Shown here: positions 7,958 to 42,990 of the stretch, one piece after another
How positions within the stretch are numbered: position 1 is the first letter of the stretch
How the letters are laid out: each line of letters begins with the position of its first letter
From: Chloracidobacterium sp. N
GTDB taxonomy: Bacteria; Acidobacteriota; Blastocatellia; Chloracidobacteriales; Chloracidobacteriaceae
Assembly: GCF_018304765.1 (NCBI RefSeq)
Contig: NZ_CP072642.1
Coordinates: forward strand, 1,161,501 to 1,225,500
Direction of reading: 5' to 3'
DNA length: 64,000 nucleotides
Position numbers and translations under genes: made by a program
The notes under the pieces: model-generated
Database searches by the model: none
Told to the model about the DNA's origin: nothing
Seen by the model: the letters and a program-made list of their open reading frames with translations, nothing else

Positions 7958-9467
7958 TAACCACAAACTTTCATCATCATGGAAAACTAGAGAGCTCTTG
8001 AGGAGCAAGGGGCAATTTTGGACACCCGATTGGGTCGCTGAGCCAATGGTTGAATATGTTCTTGCCGAAAAAGGCGGCCTTCTCTTTGACCCAGCAGTTG
8101 GGGCAGGAGCATTCTTCCGTGCTGCGAAAGTAGTAGCTAGTGAAAAAGGTCTCTCCGTTAGATTTGCCGGAATGGAAATTGACCCAGTAACACTATCTCA
8201 AGCCCAAGAGAATGGCCTAACTAAAGATGATATTGCTTTGGTAGAAATTGCTGATTTTGTACTCCAAGCACCCTGTAAGAAATTTCACGCCATTGTAGCT
8301 AATCCTCCATACATTCGGCATCACCGAATCACTCCAGAGAAAAAAGTACAACTTAGGCGTTTGAGCATTCAAACAATTGGCAAAGCACTTGATGGACGAG
8401 CAGGGCTACATGTGTATTTCTTGATGCGTGCTTTGTCACTACTTGAAGAAAATGGAAGATTAGCATTTATTGTACCTGCTGACGTATGTGAAGGTAAATT
8501 CGCCTCTGAGTTATGGACTTGGATTACAGCAAATTTTACTTTAGATGCCATTATAACCTTTTCTCCAGAAGCATCACCATTTCCTCAAATTGATGTAAAT
8601 CCAATTATTTTACTTATTCGCAGATCAGCGCCGAGAGAGAGATTTCTGTGGGCCAAGTGCTGCTTTCAGGCAACCAGCTCATTCAAATATTGGGTGAGGT
8701 CTCAATTTAGGGATACATCTAAACGAGACTTGATTGTAATTGAACGAGACTTGAAAGAAGGATTATCTGAAGGATTTTCAAGGGAACCTACTTTATGTAA
8801 AGGAAAAAGTAGATACGTTCTTGGTGATTTTATTTCGGTTAAGCGTGGCATTGCAACAGGAGCAAATGACTTTTTCTTTATGACTGCCGAGAAAGTAAGA
8901 GAATTAAGAATACCTGAAAAGTATCTCACTCAAGCAATTGGCCGCACAAGAGACGTTGTAGGAGACGAAATTACTTATCGAACACTTGAAGAAATTGAGA
9001 AAAAGGGAAGGCCCACTCTACTACTATCGCTCAATGAGGATAACTTAGAAAATTTTCCAGAATCTGTTAAACAATACCTCAGCAAAGGTGAAGAACTAGG
9101 ATTGCCTAACCGTCCTTTGATTTCACAGCGCAATCCTTGGTATAAAATAGAAACCCGTATTCCACCACCTTTTTTATTTGCTTATTTGGGCCGTCGTAAC
9201 TCAAGGTTTATTCGAAATTACGCTTACGTTGTTCCATTGACAAGCTTCCTGTGCATATATCCAAAGAGGAATGATAAAAAAAACATAGACCAAATTTGGA
9301 AAATCCTCACTCATCCAGATGTGTTAGCAGGTCTTTCAATGGTTGGGAAAACTTATGGTGACGGCGCAATAAAGGTTGAGCCTAGATTTTTAGAGAAGCT
9401 TCCTATTCCAGACCATGTTGTTGAACTGTCGGGCCTTTCGATGCAGATGTGTCTATTTGAGCGATAA
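7944..9467 (+). CDS. Type II N6-adenine DNA methyltransferase (gamma class)
   Basis: It should methylate adenine within the recognition site of the partner nuclease. Motif I is FDPAVGAGAF near residue 48, the acidic strand of motif II is GMEID, and motif IV is NPPYIRHH near residue 120, the N6-adenine signature. The motif order I...IV and a C-terminal target-recognition half (residues ~270-490, ISVKRGIATGANDFFF) fit the TaqI/AccI-type methyltransferases. The C-terminus (LEKLPIPD) also fits that family. The 507-residue length is normal. Composition is as AT-rich as the nuclease gene, and the two form an operon with 14-bp overlap. Confidence 0.88.
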   Translation: MLKTSNHKLSSSWKTRELLRSKGQFWTPDWVAEPMVEYVLAEKGGLLFDPAVGAGAFFRAAKVVASEKGLSVRFAGMEIDPVTLSQAQENGLTKDDIALVEIADFVLQAPCKKFHAIVANPPYIRHHRITPEKKVQLRRLSIQTIGKALDGRAGLHVYFLMRALSLLEENGRLAFIVPADVCEGKFASELWTWITANFTLDAIITFSPEASPFPQIDVNPIILLIRRSAPRERFLWAKCCFQATSSFKYWVRSQFRDTSKRDLIVIERDLKEGLSEGFSREPTLCKGKSRYVLGDFISVKRGIATGANDFFFMTAEKVRELRIPEKYLTQAIGRTRDVVGDEITYRTLEEIEKKGRPTLLLSLNEDNLENFPESVKQYLSKGEELGLPNRPLISQRNPWYKIETRIPPPFLFAYLGRRNSRFIRNYAYVVPLTSFLCIYPKRNDKKNIDQIWKILTHPDVLAGLSMVGKTYGDGAIKVEPRFLEKLPIPDHVVELSGLSMQMCLFER

Positions 9468-15694: not shown

Positions 15695-16645
15695 CTAACT
15701 GTGGCGCGCCAGGACGTAATCACAAACCTCGTCCAGTCGGGAAAAACTATGTGGAATCGAAAGGCGGCTGACGCGAACCGCCGTGACCAGTTGGGTCAGG
15801 GTATCCAGAATGGCAACCCGCGCTTCCGGCAGGGGAAGCCAGTCGGGATAGATGTTGGGCAGGAGCTGCATTACAGCCTGCATCGGAGGGAGTTGCGTAC
15901 TGCTGACCGGAGCCTCCGCCGGAACGACCTCCAAGAGGTACACGGCCGTGAGCCGTGCCGGCCGGTGTTGTTCATGGGTATCGAGAGGCAGGTAGCGTTT
16001 TTCCCAGTGCCTGGAGATGCAGGGAAGTGCGTCGGGGCGGCCGTAAAGGGCTGTGACAGAAGGGTCCCACAAGCGGATGGCGCGCGGCCCCAGATGGACC
16101 ACAAAGCCATCCGTCTGCTGTTCAACAGCAGCGACATCCTCGGCGATAATCTCCGCGCCGCGCCGGAGCAGCGCCGCTGCAAGGGTGGATTTGCCGGTAC
16201 CGTTCGGTCCCACAAAGGCCACGGCTGAGGCACCTATGGCTACTGTGCTGGCGTGCAGACACACCCGCTGCTGAATCTGGAGAACAAAACCAAGGATGGG
16301 GCCGGTCAGGTAGGTACAGGTATCCTCAAACGTCTGCGGCGGTGACCAGAGCGCCGTGATACGGCGTTGAGGGTGGTCGTAGGTGAAAGCCGTGCCGACG
16401 TTATAGCAAAAGTGAAACAGACCGCGCTCCGGCTCATGGTAGCCAATGAGTTCGGGGCCCTGCCTGGCGTCCACAATTTGCCCCTGATACCACGGTGCAC
16501 ACGCCGGGGGGCGTGGTGGCGTGGGATTTTCCTCAAAGGCGAGAAAGCCATCGGCGGTGTCTTCACCAAGGTGCACCGGCTGGAGAAAAGGAACCGGGCG
16601 GGTTGTCGTCAGTCGCCGTCCATAAACCATCTGCGCTGATGCCAT
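15695..16645 (-). CDS. HprK-like kinase of the lasso-peptide cluster
   Basis: This is a ~316-residue protein with a Walker A motif [19 protein letters not shown] near the middle and [10 protein letters not shown] after it, the HPr-kinase/phosphorylase-like P-loop fold. Such kinases are found in lasso clusters; paeninodin's kinase phosphorylates the C-terminal Ser of the precursor. Both precursors here end in Ser-Arg, so phosphorylation of that Ser is a possible role. The start is uncertain: GTG 16657 directly abuts the precursor stop, and ATG 16645 and 16630 also fit. It is the last gene of the minus-strand lasso operon. A decayed copy of its 5' end follows the other precursor gene. The C-terminal half is less conserved. 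Confidence 0.8.
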
Positions 16646-16657
16646 CTGGGGAGACAC

Positions 16658-16843
16658 TCACCGTGAGAGACGGTTTGGGGGGGGGCCAACCCGGTCACGC
16701 ACGGTTATGCCAAAAGCGGCCCAAGTACATTCAACAAGTGACCCGTAATCGGCGAGCATCGGCGACTGGTATGCCTTTTTGGCAGACCGCCCGGCTTGTG
16801 AAGAGGTGGCCGGTTGTTTGTATGGCAATGATGGTCTTTTCAT
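16658..16843 (-). CDS. Lasso peptide precursor 1
   Basis: This is a 61-residue precursor. The leader has the lasso recognition motif: Tyr25-x-x-Pro28-x-Leu30, Gly34, Leu36 and Thr40, with Thr at position -2. Predicted cleavage after Trp41 leaves a 20-residue core starting AAFGITVRD and ending NRLSR. Core residue 9 is Asp50, which suits a macrolactam to the amino group of Ala1 (9-residue ring, 11-residue tail containing three Pro). The start ATG has a GGAA sequence upstream. The kinase gene follows immediately. The N-terminal part (MKRPSLP) is alike in both precursors. Function of the mature peptide is unknown. Confidence 0.85.
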   Translation of the reverse strand: MKRPSLPYKQPATSSQAGRSAKKAYQSPMLADYGSLVECTWAAFGITVRDRVGPPPNRLSR

Positions 16844-17339: not shown

Positions 17340-17522
17340 TTACCGTGAAGCACGAGAGGTTCTGAGAGCGCGATCGACACGGAATCCCGTACCAGAGGCA
17401 CGGGTGAAATCAATGAGTGAGCCGTAACCCATAAGGGTTGGTGGTTGGTATGCCTTTCTGTTGGGTTGCCGGACCTGTGATGGGCTTGCAGTTTGTTCAC
17501 GTGGCAGTGAAGGCTGTTTCAT
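17340..17522 (-). CDS. Lasso peptide precursor 2
   Basis: This is a 60-residue paralogue of precursor 1. The leader has Tyr25-x-x-Pro28-x-Leu30, Gly34, Leu36 and Thr40 at exactly the same positions. Predicted cleavage after Arg41 gives a 19-residue core beginning ASGTGFRVD and ending SRASR. Asp50 is core position 9, matching Ala1 for a 9-residue ring. The core has five Arg, one in the ring and four in the tail. ATG 17522 is preferred over an ATG at 17549 because GGAG lies about 8 nt upstream and the resulting N-terminus matches precursor 1. It follows the cyclase stop by 42 bp. Confidence 0.85.
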   Translation of the reverse strand: MKQPSLPREQTASPSQVRQPNRKAYQPPTLMGYGSLIDFTRASGTGFRVDRALRTSRASR

Positions 17523-17564: not shown

Positions 17565-19394
17565 CTATACAACCTTGGATTGCAACCATTTGTATAGGCT
17601 CAGCGGGCTGAGGTCAACAAAAGATTTGGCCTCGTGCTGTGCATCCCACACGAGAGGAATAACCAAGGCTTCGACGTTCACGAAGCAAGCCAAGTGATGG
17701 CGGGCTTCCGGGGGAAGTTCCGCCCAGCCTGTGCCATGCCGCCTGATGTAGCCGGTGACGGGAAACTGAGGAAGGGGAGACTTGGCGCGCCGGACGACAG
17801 CGCGTGGGAGCCGGTCCTTGAGCAGTTCCCGGAAAAGCCACTTGTCCAGGCAAAGGGGAACCGTTGGCGCCGCCAGGAGAAATCTGATGATGCGCTGGTC
17901 AAGCAACGGGGAGCGCGTTTCCATCAAAGCGCCGGTAAATGACAGGTCGCTGTATTCATTGTCGTTGGCCAGGTGAACCCGACTCATCGCCTGCAGCATA
18001 AGCCGCCGGTAGGGGTGCTGTGGTGGACTGGGTTGCATGCGCTCGAAATAGCCAGCCCGACGCAGGCGCGTCACAAAGTCTGTTGCCAGCCAGCGGGGGA
18101 TTTCTGACCGGGTTGGGTGTTTTCGTCCAAGTATCCGCCCAAACTGACGCCGAAGTGAAAAGAAGCCATTGCGGACGTCAGCTACAAAGTACGCCACAAG
18201 AGCCTCGCCCAAGCGGAGTAACTGCCGCCGGGCAACGAGATCGCGCAGGTAGGGTGCTGTTTCCTGAAGCATGACTTCATCGCCCCACTGCCCGGTCAGG
18301 ACAATGCGGGCGTGGCTGCCCACCTGGCGGTAACTTTCCATGATGCCATTCCAGAAGGGTTCGTGAACCGGCTCAGGTGGTGGGGGAACGCCGGCCGGGG
18401 GGGGCGCATACGGCTGCCAGTGGTCCTGCTCAATGAAGGTAATGGGAATACCGTGACCCCGGGCGGCCAGACCGGCAAAATGCCGCTCGCAGTCGGGAAT
18501 GAGTGTGTTGAAAACACAAGTAAAAGCGTGGAGGTCTGTCGTTGGGCAGGCGCGCCGCGCGGCAGCCGTCACAACGTTGGAATCCAGCCCGCCGCTGAGA
18601 AGAACAGATGCACGTGGTGCGCGCAGCCGGTCAGCTACAGCCTGTTCCAGAAGCGCCTGAAAATGCTCAACGTAATCACTCGTGCGGGCATAGCGGAGAT
18701 ACCCATTGGTCGGCCAGTCCCAGTAACGCCATTGCCGCTGTGCGCCCCCTTCAAGGCACAGCGCCGTAGCCCGTGGCAGGCGGCGGATGGCGCGGTAAAA
18801 CGTGCCGTCTTCGTCCAGCTTCATCCCTTCGATGAGAAAATCGGCAACGGCAAAGTCGTCCAAATCGGTTGGGATGGAGGTGGGAATCTGCGGGTGGGCG
18901 CAGATGGTCGCAAGGTCGCTGGAGGCAACAAACAGCCCCGGCTGATAGCTGTAATAGAGCGGCTTGACGGCGAACGGGTCGCGCGCGCAGAACAGCCGTC
19001 GGCGACGGGCATCCCACAGGGCAAAGGCAAAGTCGCCCTGAAGGTAGTGCAGGCAATCCAACTCCCACAGGTGGTACGCCTGCCAGAGCAGTCTGGCATC
19101 CGGCATATCTTGGTCGGCCTCCCCGCCAGCCGTCTGGATGGCACGGCAGAGTCCTTCGCGCGCATCCAGCCGGATGTCAGCCGCAAGCCATACCTGTCCG
19201 TCGAATGTCAGCGGCGGTGGGATGCGCGTCAGGTTATCTACCCAGAGATGGGCGTACCCCAATGCAACATTTGCCCCCAGCCAGTGGGATTGACCATCAG
19301 GGCCGCGCCAGGCCATCTGCTGAAGCAACCGTGCGACAAGCGGCGGCTCAACCAGCCGGCCGTCGGGATGGAAGATAACGAAAAAGCTGCTCAC
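17565..19394 (-). CDS. Lasso peptide cyclase (asparagine synthetase-like)
   Basis: This is a 609-residue AsnB homologue of the macrolactam-forming (C protein) type. The N-terminal glutaminase-like domain (~1-190) lacks the nucleophile Cys2 (the sequence begins MSSFFVIF), as expected for a cyclase that takes no ammonia from glutamine. The synthetase domain has the PP-loop SVLLSGGLDSNVV near residue 240 and TGQWGDEVM near 365. It should adenylate the Asp9 side chain of the core and join it to Ala1. It overlaps the preceding B2 peptidase gene by 4 bp and is followed at 42 bp by precursor 2. Confidence 0.9.
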   Translation of the reverse strand: MSSFFVIFHPDGRLVEPPLVARLLQQMAWRGPDGQSHWLGANVALGYAHLWVDNLTRIPPPLTFDGQVWLAADIRLDAREGLCRAIQTAGGEADQDMPDARLLWQAYHLWELDCLHYLQGDFAFALWDARRRRLFCARDPFAVKPLYYSYQPGLFVASSDLATICAHPQIPTSIPTDLDDFAVADFLIEGMKLDEDGTFYRAIRRLPRATALCLEGGAQRQWRYWDWPTNGYLRYARTSDYVEHFQALLEQAVADRLRAPRASVLLSGGLDSNVVTAAARRACPTTDLHAFTCVFNTLIPDCERHFAGLAARGHGIPITFIEQDHWQPYAPPPAGVPPPPEPVHEPFWNGIMESYRQVGSHARIVLTGQWGDEVMLQETAPYLRDLVARRQLLRLGEALVAYFVADVRNGFFSLRRQFGRILGRKHPTRSEIPRWLATDFVTRLRRAGYFERMQPSPPQHPYRRLMLQAMSRVHLANDNEYSDLSFTGALMETRSPLLDQRIIRFLLAAPTVPLCLDKWLFRELLKDRLPRAVVRRAKSPLPQFPVTGYIRRHGTGWAELPPEARHHLACFVNVEALVIPLVWDAQHEAKSFVDLSPLSLYKWLQSKVV

Positions 19395-19852
19395 AAGGCG
19401 TTGAGAGGCGTATCAAAGACGGCATATCGCTGCCGTACGTCCGGGGATTCCATCACCGGCTGGCCGCACCATTCCACCCATGCATGGGCTTCAAACGTCT
19501 GGGCGTCTTTCTCAACACCCAGCCGGAGGTCACAGACAATGCCGCGTCGCGCCAGCAGAAACCACAGCACCAGCGCGCGGATGAGGCAGGTTGGCGACCG
19601 GGGACAATACCGGGCCGCCCAAGCGACAAGAACACCTTGGTGATCCACCCAATCCGCCGGGCAGGTTGCGGATGACACCGGTGGCGGCTGACGGCCAACC
19701 ATCCACCGCATCCACCGCAGGCAGGCGCGTACACCGACGAGGCGGCACAGTCCGGGCAAACCCAGCAACAAAAGCCAGGCTGTTACCAGGTTCGCCCGGT
19801 CTTCCGATGGAAGACGGCAGAAGATATGCAGTCGGTACAGCCAACGTTTCAT
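19391..19852 (-). CDS. Lasso peptide B2 protein (transglutaminase-like leader peptidase)
   Basis: This is a 153-residue protein with the Cys-His dyad of the lasso leader peptidase. The Cys is in SPTCLIRALVLWFLLARRG (~residue 90) and the His is in FEAHAWVEWCGQP (~122). It should cut the leader after position -1 when the precursor is presented by the RRE protein. The N-terminal ~50 residues are hydrophobic in part (ALWLLLLGLPGL-like run), common in B2 proteins. Overlaps of 4 bp with both the RRE gene and the cyclase gene indicate coupled translation. Confidence 0.9.
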   Translation of the reverse strand: MKRWLYRLHIFCRLPSEDRANLVTAWLLLLGLPGLCRLVGVRACLRWMRWMVGRQPPPVSSATCPADWVDHQGVLVAWAARYCPRSPTCLIRALVLWFLLARRGIVCDLRLGVEKDAQTFEAHAWVEWCGQPVMESPDVRQRYAVFDTPLNAL

Positions 19853-20175
19853 GAGATTGGAGCTGCCGCTGGCGGCGAATCTGAAGAAACCGGGTCAGGC
19901 GGAACAATCTCGATGAGATCAGCTTGTCGAAGCTGCTCCAGCAGGCTGTCGAAATCCCGCTGAAGCCGTTCCGGTTCGACTTCATATTCGTCCAGCAGAG
20001 CCGCCAAAGCGTCTTGCAACGTCGGGCAACTGGTGGCTTGCCGCAGCATGCTGTAAGCCACACTGTCCAGGCCGTAGTAATGCTCTGTGACCAGATTGAG
20101 CAGGATGGCTTCATCCGCAACAGAGCGCACAATGACATGCTTGGGAATCAGGGCACGGTTCATAAGAGAAAGCAT
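19849..20175 (-). CDS. PqqD-like RiPP recognition element (lasso B1)
   Basis: This is a 108-residue protein with the PqqD fold pattern: three N-terminal strands (VIVRSVADEAILLNLVTEHYYGLDSVAYSML), then helices. The C-terminal winged-helix part contains LQDALAALLDEYEVEPERLQRDFDSLLEQL. It binds the leader motif of the precursors. A short Pro-rich tail follows. The start could be ATG 20175 or 20160; neither has a good ribosome-binding site, but the second gives the typical length. It is the first gene of the minus-strand lasso operon, divergent from the PRMT-like gene. No ABC exporter or isopeptidase gene is adjacent. Confidence 0.88.
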   Translation of the reverse strand: MLSLMNRALIPKHVIVRSVADEAILLNLVTEHYYGLDSVAYSMLRQATSCPTLQDALAALLDEYEVEPERLQRDFDSLLEQLRQADLIEIVPPDPVSSDSPPAAAPIS

Positions 20176-20337: not shown

Positions 20338-21498
20338 ATGTACCCTGATTATGCAGCCCTAACCTACCATGCTTCACTGATTGCTGATGAGCGTCGGGTG
20401 CAACCCTTTCAGTCTGCCATCGAGTCTGTCGTACGCCCCGGCGATGTCGTTGCCGACGTTGGCTGCGGAACAGGGATTCTGACGCTTCTGGCATGCCGGG
20501 CCGGCGCCCGGCACACCTATGCCATTGATGAAGGCCCCATCATTGAACTTGCCAGGCTGATTATTGAGCAGAATGGTTATGCTGACCGCGTGACATTCAT
20601 CAATCACCTGTCCACCCGCGCCCGGCTGCCAGAGCCGGTGGATGTCATCGTCTCTGAGACGATAGGCAACTATGGCGCAGAGGAGCTTATTCTCCCGACG
20701 CTCCGGGATGCCTGTCGCCGCTGGCTGAAGCCAGGCGGAAAGCTCATTCCGCAGGCACTCGAACTGTACTGCGCACCGATCACCTGGCCGGAAGCCAAGC
20801 CAGATTTGTCCGTCTGGCGTGAGCCGGTGTGTGGTTTTGATTTTTCGTCTGCGTTGTCCTTTGCCGTCAACCAGCAGTATCCACGCCGGTTGAGTCCGCA
20901 GCACGTGCTGGCCGAAGGGCGCTGCTACTGCCGGGTTGACCTGACCCCCGCCGCGCTGGATGGTGATGCCCTGCCTAGAATAGCCGGGACAGCATGCTTT
21001 CGGGTGGCGCAGCCGGGGGTGATGCATGGCATCGGCGGGTGGTTCAAGGCGTGGCTTACGGAAGACATCACGCTGACGAACAGCCCCCTTCTTGAGTCTC
21101 CAACCAGTTGGGGACACGTGTGTTTACCGATTGCCGAGCCGCTGCCGGTGGCCGTTGGGGATGAAGTCGAAGTGACGCTCCGGGCGGTTGGCGGCGGCGG
21201 TGTGTTGTGCTGGGACGTGACCTGGCGCAGTGTTGGGGGGGAATCCAAAACGTTCCGCCATTCGGACTTCGAGGGCTGGCTGGCAACACCGGAACGCCTG
21301 CGTCCGCTGTCGCCCACGGCGGCGCCGGGGCTGGGAGTGGAAGGCAAAATGCAACTCTTTCTGCTGACAAAGCTCGACGCCGGCTGGACAGTTGAGCAGG
21401 TCGCCCGTGGGCTACGCGAAAGCTTTTCTTCCGAGTTTCCTACGGATGAGGATGCTCTGGTCTATGTGAAAAGGCAGGCACTGAAGTTCGCTCGTTGA
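20338..21498 (+). CDS. PRMT-like protein arginine methyltransferase, possibly with PqqD-like tail
   Basis: This is a ~386-residue protein with the PRMT Rossmann fold: VADVGCGTGILTLLACRAGARHTYAID (motif I and post I), then DVIVSETIGNYGAEE near residue 105, which supplies two acidic residues like the PRMT double-E loop. The beta-barrel half includes PTSWGHVCLPIAEPLPV near residue 255, with Ser in place of His of the THW loop. The last ~50 residues (LLTKLDAGWTVEQVARGLRE ... ALVYVKRQALKFA) resemble a PqqD-like segment; this is weak evidence. An ATG at 20338 is chosen (a TTG at 20323 is possible). It is divergent from an Arg-rich lasso peptide operon, so peptide arginine methylation is a plausible role, unproven. 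Its end overlaps the convergent FGE-like gene by 59 bp. Confidence 0.75.
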   Translation: MYPDYAALTYHASLIADERRVQPFQSAIESVVRPGDVVADVGCGTGILTLLACRAGARHTYAIDEGPIIELARLIIEQNGYADRVTFINHLSTRARLPEPVDVIVSETIGNYGAEELILPTLRDACRRWLKPGGKLIPQALELYCAPITWPEAKPDLSVWREPVCGFDFSSALSFAVNQQYPRRLSPQHVLAEGRCYCRVDLTPAALDGDALPRIAGTACFRVAQPGVMHGIGGWFKAWLTEDITLTNSPLLESPTSWGHVCLPIAEPLPVAVGDEVEVTLRAVGGGGVLCWDVTWRSVGGESKTFRHSDFEGWLATPERLRPLSPTAAPGLGVEGKMQLFLLTKLDAGWTVEQVARGLRESFSSEFPTDEDALVYVKRQALKFAR

Positions 21499-22681
21499 GG
21501 CGTAGGGAGCCGGAAGTGCGTCCAGACTCTCCGTTATCCAGTTCGATCGGTTGACCTTCTCCGTAGCGGTCGCTGAGAACAACGCGAAAGCCAAGCGTCG
21601 TCAGCAGTTCTTCACGGTGCAGCCCCTCGCGGATTGAGCAGCGGCAGCCATCCGGGAGTGAGGCCCACGAGCCGCCCCGGATGGTGCGGTGTTGCGCCCA
21701 TTCTTCCTGGCGGATGTTGCGCACCGGCGCGCCCTGCGCCTGAATTCCCGTCAGGCGGGAAGTATAGGTGTCCAGACACCACTCCCGTACGTTGCCGTGC
21801 ATATCGGCCAGTCCGAAGGGATTGACCCCCAGCGATCCGGCCGGCGTTGGCTTCTTGCGTGGCGGGGCGGCTGGCTCGCCCCGGTAGGGCAGAGACCCGT
21901 CGTAGTTTTCAAGCGTCGGCAGCAGGACAGCACCGTAGGCAAACAATCCGATGGCGCCGGCCCGGCAGGCATATTCCCATTCGGCTTCGGTTGGCAGCCG
22001 GTAGGGGCGGCCGGTTCTTTTGGTCAGCCGCCGGCAGAACTCGACGGCTTCATCCCAGGTGATGCTGTCCACGGGGAGGTCGTCGCCGGTGTACTTCGAT
22101 GGGGAAGGCGGTAGGTCACGTTCGACTTTGGGCCAGGACGCGACTTCCCGCCATTGCGCCTGGGTGACTTCGGTCCGCCCCATGTAGAACCCGAAGACCC
22201 GCGCGCGCATCGGCGGACGCTCGTTGTCATAGCTTTCGGTTTCATCGGAGACCGTGTTGCCCATGGTAAAACAGCCGCCCGGTACGGCGACCAATTCCAG
22301 CGTCACCTGGTTGCCCAGGTTTTCGACAAACCGTTGCGTTTCGCCTTTGACGGTCTCGACGGTGTTGCCTTTGTCGTCCAGTCTGGGAGATTCAAAGGTG
22401 ACGGTGGAAAGCTGTTCGGCTGGAAGGGCCACGGTTGGCGCCAGCGGCCCGGACGGGCAGGGAACTGCCGGTGGACGTGCCCCCTTGCTGCTGCTGCGTC
22501 CACGCCCGCTGCCAGGTGAGGATGTCGTTTCACCGCCACCGGCTTTTCCCCCGCCCACACTCGTGCTGCGTTCCTGGGCAGCAACCTGGGTCACAGGCAG
22601 GTTTGGCATGGTCATCGCCCAAAGAAATCCCAGCGCCAGACCAGCCGGCCAGATATGCCAACCTGTTTTCCGTTGCGCCAT
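21440..22681 (-). CDS. Formylglycine-generating-enzyme-like (SUMF1) exported protein
   Basis: This is a 413-residue protein with an N-terminal hydrophobic signal (WHIWPAGLALGFLWAMTM) and a Gly/Ser/Pro-rich linker. The FGE-sulfatase domain starts near residue 130 with LVAVPGGCFTMGNTVSDE and continues with EVTQAQWREVASWP, RPYRLPTEAEWEYACRAG, GNVREWCLD and RTIRGGSWASLPDGCRC. Members act as sulfatase-activating oxidases, but many bacterial members only share the fold. The copper-binding Cys pair of true FGE cannot be placed with confidence. The gene is convergent with the PRMT gene (59-bp overlap), and both stop codons lie inside the other frame. The 131-bp gap to cobU contains no gene. Confidence 0.8.
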   Translation of the reverse strand: MAQRKTGWHIWPAGLALGFLWAMTMPNLPVTQVAAQERSTSVGGGKAGGGETTSSPGSGRGRSSSKGARPPAVPCPSGPLAPTVALPAEQLSTVTFESPRLDDKGNTVETVKGETQRFVENLGNQVTLELVAVPGGCFTMGNTVSDETESYDNERPPMRARVFGFYMGRTEVTQAQWREVASWPKVERDLPPSPSKYTGDDLPVDSITWDEAVEFCRRLTKRTGRPYRLPTEAEWEYACRAGAIGLFAYGAVLLPTLENYDGSLPYRGEPAAPPRKKPTPAGSLGVNPFGLADMHGNVREWCLDTYTSRLTGIQAQGAPVRNIRQEEWAQHRTIRGGSWASLPDGCRCSIREGLHREELLTTLGFRVVLSDRYGEGQPIELDNGESGRTSGSLRLNERTSVPAFSHRPEHPHP

Positions 22682-38839: not shown

Positions 38840-38865
38840 GGTTGTGGGGTGACAGAGGGAGAGCG

Positions 38866-41800
38866 ATGAAAAGTGGGCGTGATAGTTCCATCACACAATA
38901 CGCAATTATACTTCGCCAGGGCAAAGCTGAAAGAGGGGGAATACCCGGCTTTTCAGGCTGGATTGGTTGGCTCTGGCTCGGTCTGGTTCTCGCCCTGCCG
39001 GGCGGATGGCTTGCCGCCCAGTCGCCGCCGCCGGGCCCTGCCATCAGTGGCGTGGTGGTTGGTGAGTCCGGCACACCGCTGTCCGATGCCAAGGTGGTCT
39101 GTACCGGACCCGCTGCGCCGTCAACCTCACTCCTGACGGCCGGAGATGGCAGGTTCACCTTTCCGCTCCCGCGCGTTGGCAAATACACCCTCACGGCGAC
39201 GGCCAGCGGCTACCGCCCACAGACCCAGACCATCACCCTGAATCGCCTGGATGAAACTCCAGCCGACATCAAACTCCAGCTCTCACCCAGTTCCCTGCGC
39301 GTTCTGGTGCGGGACGAACGGGTCGGTACGCCCATGGCCGGCGCCGTGGTGACCGCGCGGCTGCGGGAATCTTCCCGCCGGGAAGTCAGCGCCCTGCGCG
39401 CCCTTGAAAGCCGGCGGGGCGAATACTTCTTTGGGCGGATGGAAGCTGGTGTCTATGAGGTCACGGCGGTGGTGACCGGCTACGAAGCCAAAACGTCCGA
39501 GGTTGTTGTCACCGGTGAGCGGACGACGCTTGAAGTGACCCTCCTGCTTAGCCGGGTTTCGACCATTCCGCTTGGCATCCGCAGTCTGGACCGTTCCTTC
39601 GTCGCACCACGGTTGCCCTCCAACGACGTGCAGACGGTTTTCCCCGACCGTGACGGGAGCGTGTGGTTTGGCACGGCGGCCGGCGTGTGCCGTTTCGACG
39701 GGCAGCAGTTCTGGTCATCGGAAACGCCGGAGTCGCTGCTGTCTCCGCTGGCTGGCAAATCGGTGACGGCGCTGGCGCGGACGGCGGACGGCACCCTGTG
39801 GTTTGGGCTGCCGACCGGGCTGGCCGCTTTGGGGCCAACGTCAACGACCGTGACGGCCCTCAGTGAACCGGCCGTGGCCGTCACCTGTCTGCTGCCCGGT
39901 CCGTCCGAAGACCTGTGGGTGGGCACCGGGCAGGGCCTGTACCGCTACTGGCCGTCGCCACCGCGCTGGGACTTCATCCGGGAAATCGGCAACACGCGCA
40001 TCCGCGCCTTGCTGGCTGTTTCCGGCGGCCTTGTGGTGGCGACCGACCGGGGATTGTTCCGGTGGCCATCGGGGCCGGGTTGGGAGCCGGTGCTGTCCGT
40101 CGCCCAGGCTGGAGAGAGCGCCGCGTATGGCCTGACCGCTGATCCACAGTCGCTGACCGTGTGGTGCACTACGGCTGCCGGGCTTTACACTCTGACACCC
40201 GATGGCCAGCTTCTGCCGGTTTCCGGCTCTATGTTGCAGCGTCCACTGGGGGCCTGCCACGTGGATAGTGAGGGGCATGTGTGGTGCGCCCGCGCCGACG
40301 GGCCCGGTGTGGTGGTCTATGACCCACGTCGCCAGGAAACCGCCGAAGTGCTGACCGACACCGAAGTGACCGCTGTGGCCGGTGATCCCGACCAGAATGT
40401 GTGGCTGGCCACCCGCAAGGGGGCGCTGCGGTACGATGCCTACAGTTTCGTCGTCTTTGATACCAGTCGCGGGTTGCCGGACAGTGACGTGCAGGCCATG
40501 GCTCCGCGGGCCGAAGGTGGGCTGTGGGTCGGTACGTCGCGGGGGGTCTATGCCTTTGACGGGATTCGCTTCCAGCGCGTGCACCCTGAGCTGGACAAAA
40601 TACCCGTGCGGGCCCTGCTGGCGGTAGAGAACCGTCTGTGGGTTGGGGCGGAAAACGGTCTCTGGCTGTGGGATGGGAACACGGTGCAGAGCATCCCGGC
40701 GGGTGAGGGGGCGTTTTCCAGGGTGCGCTCGCTGCTGTTTGACGGTTCGCGCCAGACACTCTGGGTGGCCACGGCCAAGGCCCTGTTCAAGGTGGACAGC
40801 CAGACCCTGAAACTCGACAGCGAGGCCATTCCACTGGATGGCGAAGTGCGGATGGCGCTGCTGTCACGTTCCGGCACGGTCTGGCTGGCGACGAACGATG
40901 GCGTGTATCGCTACGAGCCGGGCACGGCAGAACTCGTCGTCATTGGAACGACGCTGGGGCTGGAAAGCCTCGATGTGCGCACCATCGTCGAGCAGCCCCA
41001 GTCGGGGCGCTTCTGGCTGGCGACCGGACGCGGTATCGAAACCTTCGATGGTGTCAGTTTTGTCTCTGATGAATTCCGCGCGGCCGTGCAGGGCGGCGAT
41101 GTCCAGACCCTCTACGTCGAGCAACATCCCTCCGGGGGCTTTCTGTGGGTGGGATTGGGCGACGGCAGCCTGCGCAAGTTCCTGCTCGATGGCAACGGTG
41201 TGGCCCAGACCTACCGGCGCGACCGCTATGACCTGGGCGGGCTGCGCTTCCGGGCCATGGTCGCAACCCCGGACGGCCACCTCTGGCTGGCGACTGATGC
41301 CGGTCTCGTGCGCCACCGTCCCAACGTGCGGGCGCCGGTCATTGACATCCGTCTGGAGGCCGATGGCGCCGAACTGCCGGGGACGGCCGAGGCTTCACTG
41401 CGCGCCGGTTTTCACCGGTTGAAATTCCGTTTCACGGCCCTCAGCCAGACCGGCCCCGTGACGTACTTTTACCGCCTGTCGGGCCGGGATGCGAAATGGC
41501 GCATCCTTTCACCCGAACGGACCGCCATGACGACGGCCGAGTATGCGGTCGCCGGACTTCCAGCCGGTGAACACGTCTTTGAAGTGCGGGCGCTCAACCG
41601 CGACCTCTACGGCCAGCAGGCTCCGGTGCAGCGGTATGTCGTGCGGATTGCCGCTCCGTTTTACCTCCGGGGATGGTTCTGGGCGCTCTGCGTTCTGGTG
41701 ATGACCGGCGGCGGAACCGGCGTCTGGTTCGTTCAGCGCGCACGCAGCCGGGAGTACGTCCTGCCGCCAGCCCTGCGCCGGTTCACGCCCATCCAGCCCA

Positions 41801-42990
41801 ATCCCTATGTTGTGGGCAACCCGATTCGCTCCCAGACGATGTTTTTCGGGCGGGAAGACGACTTCCACTACGTTGCCCGCAAGCTCGAAGGCACCCCCCA
41901 GGGGCTGGTCATCGTGTTCTGCGGCGAGCGCCGGACGGGGAAAAGCTCCATCCTGTACCAGATGGCCAACGGCCGGTTGGGCGCGGCTTTCGTTCCGGTG
42001 TTCATTGACATGCAGGAAATGCTCGTCCACAGCGACCGGGAGTTTTTCAGCCGGGTCGCCCGCCTCGTGGTCGAGGCGGTTGCCAAAGCGACGGCCACGC
42101 CGGTCAGCCTGGCGGCGGACCCGCTCTCCACCTGGGCCGAAGGGACGGTTGTGAAAGCGGCCGCCGGGAACGGGCAGGCGAATGTGTATGACCACGTACG
42201 GGATTTCGTCGGGCGGGCCCTGCAGCAGATTGGCGACCGGCAGATGGTCTGGCTGGTGGATGAATACGAGCTGTTTGAGACCAAAATCGAGGAAGACAAG
42301 CTTTCACGCGACCTGCTGCCATTTCTGGCCAGCCTGCTGGACCGTTACGAGCGCCTGTCGTTTGTTTTTACCGGCTCACGCCGTCTCGAAGAACGTGACA
42401 AGCGGTTGTGGCGTGATTTGTTGCGGCGCTCACTCTTTCGCAAGGTGTCCTACCTGACGCCGAACGACACCCGCCGGCTCATTACGGAGCCAGTCCGGGA
42501 GCGGGTCGTGTACGGGCGGGGCGTCGTGGAGGCCATCGTGCGGCTGACAGCCGGGCAGCCGTTTTACACCCAGGTGATTTGTCAGAACATCGTGGATTTT
42601 CTCAATGAGCAGAAGCGCCACTATGTCCTGCGGGCTGATGTGCTGGCCATCGTCGAGGAAGTCGTCAACAACCCCCTCCCCCAGATGATCTACTTCTGGG
42701 AGGCGCTGAGTGACGATGAAAAGCTCGTTCTGGCGCTGGTTGCCGATACGCTGGTGGATGAGCAGGATGTCGTCTCCTCGACGCGCCTGGCCGCGCGGAT
42801 TACGGAGTGCAACTATCCCCTGACGCTTTCCGAAGCCACGATCCGCCTCACCCTCGAAGAACTGTTCCGCAGTGAGCTGCTGGAAAAATACGGCGCCGAT
42901 ACCTTTGCCTATCGCGTGGATTTGCTCCGCCACTGGATTCGGCGCAGTCACAGCGTCTGGCAGGTGGTGGGCGAAGTCCGTTCGCGGTAG
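38866..42990 (+). CDS. Exported beta-propeller sensor with single membrane span and cytosolic P-loop ATPase
   Basis: This is a 1374-residue protein. A signal/anchor is at residues ~28-52. Two carboxypeptidase-regulatory-like Ig modules come first (AISGVVVGESGTPLSDAKVVC; VRDERVGTPMAGAVV). At ~235-830 there are Reg_prop repeats such as VWFGTAAGVCRFDG and LWVGTSRGVYAFDG. A Y_Y_Y domain follows (~845-925: YFYRLSGRDAKWR), then one membrane span (~933-957: GWFWALCVLVMTGGG). The cytosolic part begins near 985 (MFFGREDDF) with Walker A CGERRTGKSS (~1021) and Walker B-like MVWLVDEYELFE (~1127), like STAND/AAA NTPases. Usually such propellers precede a histidine kinase, so this is an unusual fusion. 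ATG 38866 is chosen for its GGGAG site at -8. Confidence 0.88.
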   Translation: MKSGRDSSITQYAIILRQGKAERGGIPGFSGWIGWLWLGLVLALPGGWLAAQSPPPGPAISGVVVGESGTPLSDAKVVCTGPAAPSTSLLTAGDGRFTFPLPRVGKYTLTATASGYRPQTQTITLNRLDETPADIKLQLSPSSLRVLVRDERVGTPMAGAVVTARLRESSRREVSALRALESRRGEYFFGRMEAGVYEVTAVVTGYEAKTSEVVVTGERTTLEVTLLLSRVSTIPLGIRSLDRSFVAPRLPSNDVQTVFPDRDGSVWFGTAAGVCRFDGQQFWSSETPESLLSPLAGKSVTALARTADGTLWFGLPTGLAALGPTSTTVTALSEPAVAVTCLLPGPSEDLWVGTGQGLYRYWPSPPRWDFIREIGNTRIRALLAVSGGLVVATDRGLFRWPSGPGWEPVLSVAQAGESAAYGLTADPQSLTVWCTTAAGLYTLTPDGQLLPVSGSMLQRPLGACHVDSEGHVWCARADGPGVVVYDPRRQETAEVLTDTEVTAVAGDPDQNVWLATRKGALRYDAYSFVVFDTSRGLPDSDVQAMAPRAEGGLWVGTSRGVYAFDGIRFQRVHPELDKIPVRALLAVENRLWVGAENGLWLWDGNTVQSIPAGEGAFSRVRSLLFDGSRQTLWVATAKALFKVDSQTLKLDSEAIPLDGEVRMALLSRSGTVWLATNDGVYRYEPGTAELVVIGTTLGLESLDVRTIVEQPQSGRFWLATGRGIETFDGVSFVSDEFRAAVQGGDVQTLYVEQHPSGGFLWVGLGDGSLRKFLLDGNGVAQTYRRDRYDLGGLRFRAMVATPDGHLWLATDAGLVRHRPNVRAPVIDIRLEADGAELPGTAEASLRAGFHRLKFRFTALSQTGPVTYFYRLSGRDAKWRILSPERTAMTTAEYAVAGLPAGEHVFEVRALNRDLYGQQAPVQRYVVRIAAPFYLRGWFWALCVLVMTGGGTGVWFVQRARSREYVLPPALRRFTPIQPNPYVVGNPIRSQTMFFGREDDFHYVARKLEGTPQGLVIVFCGERRTGKSSILYQMANGRLGAAFVPVFIDMQEMLVHSDREFFSRVARLVVEAVAKATATPVSLAADPLSTWAEGTVVKAAAGNGQANVYDHVRDFVGRALQQIGDRQMVWLVDEYELFETKIEEDKLSRDLLPFLASLLDRYERLSFVFTGSRRLEERDKRLWRDLLRRSLFRKVSYLTPNDTRRLITEPVRERVVYGRGVVEAIVRLTAGQPFYTQVICQNIVDFLNEQKRHYVLRADVLAIVEEVVNNPLPQMIYFWEALSDDEKLVLALVADTLVDEQDVVSSTRLAARITECNYPLTLSEATIRLTLEELFRSELLEKYGADTFAYRVDLLRHWIRRSHSVWQVVGEVRSR

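Follow-up and report, generated by a model that had tools for sequence, protein, structure and literature searches.

A PRMT-type methyltransferase beside a Chloracidobacterium lasso peptide operon, probably an arginine N-methylating tailoring enzyme

Introduction

In reviews to 2026, the products of lasso peptide methyltransferases are C-terminal methyl esters and aspartimides made by protein isoaspartyl methyltransferases (PIMT), and the deimination of arginine is also known. The methyltransferase tailoring known for lasso peptides is O-methylation. The carboxyl methyltransferases of the StspM and lassomycin type are cluster-encoded, SAM-dependent tailoring enzymes (PMC8498205, PMC9266682), and both StspM and known lasso kinases take the linear precursor as their substrate (PMC8498205). 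LihM and TceM are also methyltransferases of lasso clusters, and a peptidyl arginine deiminase modifies lasso-peptide arginine in citrulassin (PMC9266682).

The window analysed here is a 64,000-nucleotide stretch of Chloracidobacterium sp. N (contig NZ_CP072642.1, positions 1,161,501 to 1,225,500), in which a PRMT-type protein is encoded next to a lasso operon. This protein can be set apart from the above systems in several respects. StspM, by its description, is a non-PRMT O-methyltransferase modelled on mitomycin 7-O-methyltransferase that yields a C-terminal methyl ester, LihM and TceM are members of the PIMT family that convert an Asp of the formed lasso to aspartimide, and the citrulassin enzyme catalyses deimination, is encoded outside the cluster, and is unrelated to PRMTs. 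Over residues ~2-281, the window enzyme resembles eukaryotic type I PRMTs (PRMT6, PRMT1, and CARM1) in sequence and predicted fold, and it shares with them motif I, the Glu pair of the double-E loop, and the combination of a Rossmann domain and a beta-barrel; unlike them, it is bacterial, has TSW for THW, carries a C-terminal helical tail, and is linked to a RiPP operon. Enzymes of the SznE type, from the streptozotocin pathway, use free arginine and not a ribosomal peptide as substrate. They resemble the window enzyme in being bacterial and encoded in a biosynthetic cluster, and are mentioned as arginine methyltransferases of such clusters (PMC12637814).

In the open-access literature searched, no paper was found on a lasso peptide and a PRMT, and the papers retrieved for lasso peptide and methylarginine did not join the two. 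Methylarginine in lasso peptides is unreported in those papers, and the original prediction, too, knew of no described case. Among the lasso clusters that were cloned in a metagenome study, together with 'phospho- or methyltransferases, where present' (PMC12670498), there may be PRMT-lasso clusters that went unrecognised.

The PRMT-Type Protein

The gene and its elements are as follows.
20338-21498, plus strand: PRMT-type SAM methyltransferase, 386 aa, ATG ORF with PRMT homology (Rossmann domain, residues ~1-140; beta-barrel, ~141-311; helical tail, 334-385)
20653-20685, plus strand: intact double-E loop SETIGNYGAEE, residues 106-116, with catalytic-type Glu107 and Glu116
21103-21111, plus strand: TSW replacing THW, residues 256-258
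21337-21495, plus strand: C-terminal three-helix tail, residues 334-386, kept in most lasso-linked relatives

The ORF runs from ATG over exactly the interval originally predicted, and the motifs by which it had been called PRMT-like (VADVGCGTG as motif I, SETIGNYGAEE, and TSW) are all present. In phmmer searches, mouse PRMT6 was matched at 2.3e-32 over residues 2-277 and CARM1 at 2e-24, with the region of PRMT homology spanning residues 2-281. Pfam PRMT_C (7e-7) and PRMT5_C (2e-7) both scored above cut-off, and no PIMT match was obtained among the Pfam/NCBIfam families listed at E <= 0.1. The AlphaFold model (14 sequences) has a mean pLDDT of 78.6, and all of its top Foldseek matches are PRMTs (best 2e-28). 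Judged by sequence, the protein is a true PRMT homologue, far beyond chance, and its gene is the only PRMT found in its own genome at E <= 1e-8.

PRMTs hold the guanidinium group by means of the Glu pair of their double-E loop (PMC12153873). Glu107 and Glu116 of the window protein are in register with those of PRMTs and kept in all congeners. In TSW, the Trp is retained and Ser takes the place of His; TSW/SSW is also found in non-lasso bacterial homologues with an intact double-E loop.

The Lasso Operon and Its Conservation in the Genus

A complete lasso operon, encoded on the opposite strand and containing B1, B2, a cyclase, two precursors, and an HprK-like kinase, lies 162 bp from the start of the PRMT gene.
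19849-20175, minus strand: lasso B1, a PqqD-family RRE (PqqD 2.4e-14)
19391-19852, minus strand: lasso B2 leader peptidase, Transglut_core3/lasso_biosyn_B2 (lasso_biosyn_B2 3.7e-23)
17565-19394, minus strand: lasso cyclase C, asparagine-synthase type (2.5e-78 to the lasso cyclase model)
17340-17522, minus strand: lasso precursor 1, predicted core ASGTGFRVDRALRTSRASR, with five Arg and Asp9
16658-16843, minus strand: lasso precursor 2, predicted core AAFGITVRDRVGPPPNRLSR, with four Arg and Asp9
15695-16657, minus strand: HprK-like kinase

The divergent lasso operon of the original prediction is thus confirmed by the profile matches of B1, B2, and the cyclase, and it is the joint occurrence of B1 (RRE), B2, and an asparagine-synthase-type cyclase that marks a lasso cluster. 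B1 could also start at an internal ATG a few codons into its ORF. Both precursors fit a leader with the motif Y..P.L..YG, Thr at -2, a small residue at position 1, and Asp/Glu at 8-9 (YQPPTLMGYGSLIDFTR before A...D9 and YQSPMLADYGSLVECTW before A...D9). With core boundaries placed by Thr at -2 and an Ala1-Asp9 ring, the two cores have the four and five Arg that had been claimed for them. Elsewhere in the window, 38842-42990 (plus strand) encodes a 1,382-aa protein weakly similar to models of S-layer proteins and of PorZ from type IX secretion. The genome carries an FMO gene and is in two contigs, both in keeping with Chloracidobacterium, a genus with two chromosomes.

The PRMT was found in six of seven congeneric genomes (the window's own counted) at 70-98% identity, and the same lasso operon adjoins it in all five of the other congeneric loci fetched. 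In two of them, ~3 kb with an ORF of 938-940 aa bearing an apparent signal peptide lies between B1 and the PRMT (L034:6488-9307 and L036:10312-13125). In the PRMT-less congener (genome 85% complete), the sole B2 is of a second, weaker-scoring kind, which in congeners is part of a second locus. The window's own genome has a locus with B1-like, HprK-like, and B2-like genes and no lasso cyclase match (L224, G000:C1:2336500-2349500), and loci of this type are also present in congeners (L225-L228). In type-2 Chloracidobacterium cores, Asp9, Arg10, Gly-Pro, Asn16-Arg17, and Ser19-Arg20 are kept in 5/5 species compared.

On the other side of the PRMT, a gene with an FGE/sulfatase-modifying-factor domain and an apparent signal peptide (window 21440-22681, minus strand) is convergent with it and overlaps its 3′ end by 59 bp. 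A homologue adjoins the PRMT convergently in 5/5 congeneric loci fetched, and it could be argued that the PRMT belongs with this exported protein, or merely hitch-hikes, so that its linkage to the lasso genes is incidental. This is very improbable, since an FGE query matched no gene beside the PRMT in the other lineages compared, where the pairing of PRMT and lasso genes recurs. As a partner of the PRMT, the FGE-domain gene was rejected because it adjoins the PRMT only within the genus.

PRMTs in Other Lasso Clusters

The original prediction could be examined by the co-occurrence of PRMTs and lasso clusters in other genomes, and the outcome was strongly positive, with PRMTs inside lasso clusters of many phyla. 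Elsewhere in the class, other families have the genes in the order B1-B2-C-A-HprK-PRMT, all on one strand (L038 and L041, and on the other strand in L039). A contig scan detected PRMTs beside lasso genes in Nitrospira (L063), Acidobacteriota (L064, L065, and L073), Gemmatimonadota (L066), contigs of Deltaproteobacteria and Gammaproteobacteria (L067 and L110), Acidimicrobiia (L089 and L094), Anaerolineae of the Chloroflexota (L095), and myxobacterial contigs (L105 and L115). Later loci were drawn from two other acidobacterial classes, and of the 29 that are not duplicates about 20, by our count, have lasso genes alongside the PRMT; the loci were sampled by PRMT similarity, and such fractions are not population frequencies. 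An HprK-like gene adjoins most lasso-PRMT clusters.

That PRMT and lasso genes are linked by chance across so many phyla is not credible. Because its relatives recur in lasso clusters of many phyla, the PRMT probably decorates the lasso peptide, and a lasso-tailoring role of the window protein is well supported.

Some clusters have additional features. One lasso cluster has two PRMTs (L298:6869-13066), namely a tailed enzyme with an intact double-E loop, transcribed divergently from B1 like the PRMT of the window, and a second one with a decayed loop located after HprK. In two others, the PRMT is joined by another SAM methyltransferase, which is of a different type (L219:9368-12137 and L253:1721-4201), and ORFs 8832-9377 and 14536-15162 of L219 appear by eye to be 2-oxoglutarate oxygenase-like. 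In two genomes, a PRMT-like domain forms part of an ORF of ~1,870-1,880 aa, and the gene that comes after it is asparagine-synthase-like (L046:6542-12175 and L048:7682-13492).

Double-E Loop and Core Arginine

The lasso-linked PRMTs fall into three loop states. In state 1, the double-E loop is intact (Chloracidobacterium, L219 and L253, L110, and one of the two PRMTs of L298); in state 2, it reads xDQxGxFGFEAG, and the paired cores end in Cys-Leu in 17/19 cases; in state 3, it reads xDxRG, often with DGG...K-T cores. By lineage, the mean number of Arg per core is 3.1 for the intact state and 1.1 and 0.2 for the decayed groups (exact permutation p 0.002, or 0.004 with L298 scored as intact), the intact-loop sample comprising only three to four independent lineages. 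The test follows a pattern that had emerged from these very data; loci drawn afterwards made the pattern weaker without removing it. A strict rule by which an intact loop means an Arg-rich core, suggested by the first set, was broken by two later-drawn loci: in L280, the loop has decayed and yet the cores carry 2-5 Arg, and in L298 a tailed PRMT with an intact loop is paired with a core that has a single Arg.

In L219/L253, a second independent intact lineage, Arg4, Arg8, and Arg16 are kept against variation at roughly half of the remaining positions. Arg is present near the C-terminus in all intact-loop lineages (-NRxSR, -RT, -RR, and -PRLKT), and Lys is absent from their cores except in L298. 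In the majority of lasso-linked relatives, the double-E residues have been lost, and the corresponding cores are often devoid of Arg. Arginine methylation is therefore not a shared function of the family, and it was ruled out as a family-wide activity by this loss together with the Arg-poor cores.

A Cys-Leu end is not known from characterised lasso peptides. The precursors paired with xDQxGxFGFEAG enzymes, nearly all of which have this end, are those of L063, L064, L065, L067, L072, L209, L210, L278, and L280-L286.

Decayed-loop relatives that stay in lasso clusters with Arg-poor cores indicate that the family can act on something other than Arg, so the precursor might be tailored on another group, such as the carboxylate of the C-terminus, the side chain of an Asp/Asn, or a C-terminal phospho-Ser made by the HprK-like kinase, which adjoins lasso-PRMT genes nearly always. 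Known lasso methyltransferases are indeed carboxyl or Asp O-methyltransferases (PMC8498205, PMC9266682). For the window's genus, such a target is unlikely, though it is the strongest competitor: both double-E Glu are kept there, and the cores are unusually Arg-rich compared with those of PRMT-less lasso clusters of the same class (mean 0.33 Arg per core). Another reading makes a protein the substrate in place of the peptide, whether B1, the cyclase, an immunity/target protein, or general RNA-binding proteins, as characterised PRMTs methylate proteins and the PRMT gene is divergent from the lasso operon. The genus-wide linkage to one lasso operon, the repeated placement within lasso operons of unrelated phyla, and the covariation of loop and Arg all speak for a peptide instead, and a protein substrate is rather improbable.

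The C-Terminal Tail

The end of the protein had been proposed to be a PqqD-like segment. What stands is a helical tail of ~52 residues, with weak Pfam PqqD matches from 6/27 homologous tails (best 0.0023); the beta-sheet and any significant match do not. In the AlphaFold model of an 87-residue piece, residues 35-48, 53-63, and 71-86 form helices with pLDDT above 90, and no beta strands are predicted, so that the three-stranded sheet of an RRE is absent. The window's own tail has no Pfam PqqD match, its comparison with the B1 alignment gave an hhalign probability of 3.5%, and comparison of the modelled tail with known structures, which had been suggested as a check on the PqqD assignment, went against it: the best Foldseek E was 2.2, and B1/PqqD chains were only among the non-significant matches. 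A tail profile found nothing significant among 22,344 ORFs of the loci or in the PDB. The tail was accordingly not accepted as a PqqD/RRE domain, which, as in B1 proteins, is built on a beta-sheet, although the helix spacing of the model suggests a resemblance to the helical half of PqqD/RRE.

With regard to its distribution, 107 PRMT-like rows comprise 26 with tail and lasso genes, 9 with lasso genes and no tail, 60 with neither, and 12 with a tail and no lasso genes, several of which are on short contigs, near only HprK or a cyclase, or beside a PqqD-like ORF. The association of tail and lasso genes over these rows is strong (Fisher 1e-8, relatedness uncorrected). Tailed proteins are spread over several clades of a tree built without the tail and loop columns, in which many branches are weak; that tail gain independently tracks lasso linkage was dropped as a claim, as a phylogenetic independent-pairs test gave too few pairs. 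The tail is genuine and occurs mainly in lasso-linked PRMTs, and a role as a docking domain is plausible.

Tailed PRMTs also occur without lasso genes (L043:9559-11366, L044, and L045:9362-11093). Those of L043 and L044 adjoin an ORF that is PqqD-like by eye, with a best profile match of only 0.008 (L043). Next to the PRMT of L045 is a small Cys-rich ORF that has a Tat-like signal and might represent another RiPP type.

Proposed Function

We infer that the window protein is a PRMT-type tailoring methyltransferase of the lasso pathway that probably N-methylates Arg of the core peptides, a reading to which we assign a probability of roughly 60% and which is derived from sequence comparison. Briefly, the Rossmann domain would bind SAM, the double-E loop would hold the guanidinium group, and one or more Arg in the two Arg-rich cores would be N-methylated, most likely near the C-terminus. 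By analogy, the linear precursor would be modified before B1/B2/C form the lasso; this timing is assumed because the lasso kinases and StspM act on the linear precursor. The helical tail would probably dock the precursor or a partner protein.

Arg N-methylation is the most economical reading because both Glu are kept, Lys is absent (L298 excepted), and Arg is found near the C-terminus. Points that count against it include the TSW in place of THW and the position of the PRMT, which is divergent from the window operon, not inside it, and in two congeners is separated from it by ~3 kb and an ORF. As to arginine methylation as a lasso tailoring, which had originally been proposed, the tailoring part is upheld by co-occurrence and, for the window's genus, the intact double-E loop and its covariation with core Arg make Arg the likely target; the proposal does not extend to the whole family. 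More broadly, and tentatively, at somewhat less than even odds, the PRMT fold may have been recruited for lasso tailoring in many phyla, with methylarginine lassos in Chloracidobacterium and a few other lineages and another substrate in the decayed-loop majority, which comprises the -CysLeu and DGG...KT groups.

Implications

If a PRMT-type enzyme acts on a short ribosomal peptide, it would constitute a compact system in which to study arginine methylation and, if true, would allow the genetically encoded placement of methylarginine in stable lasso scaffolds. The combination of PRMT, HprK-like kinase, and B1/B2/C offers a handle for genome mining. In addition, the decay of the loop across clusters provides a natural series on the substrates of the PRMT fold after loss of the double-E residues, and if the decayed-loop enzymes methylate a non-guanidinium substrate, this would be a new chemistry for the PRMT fold.
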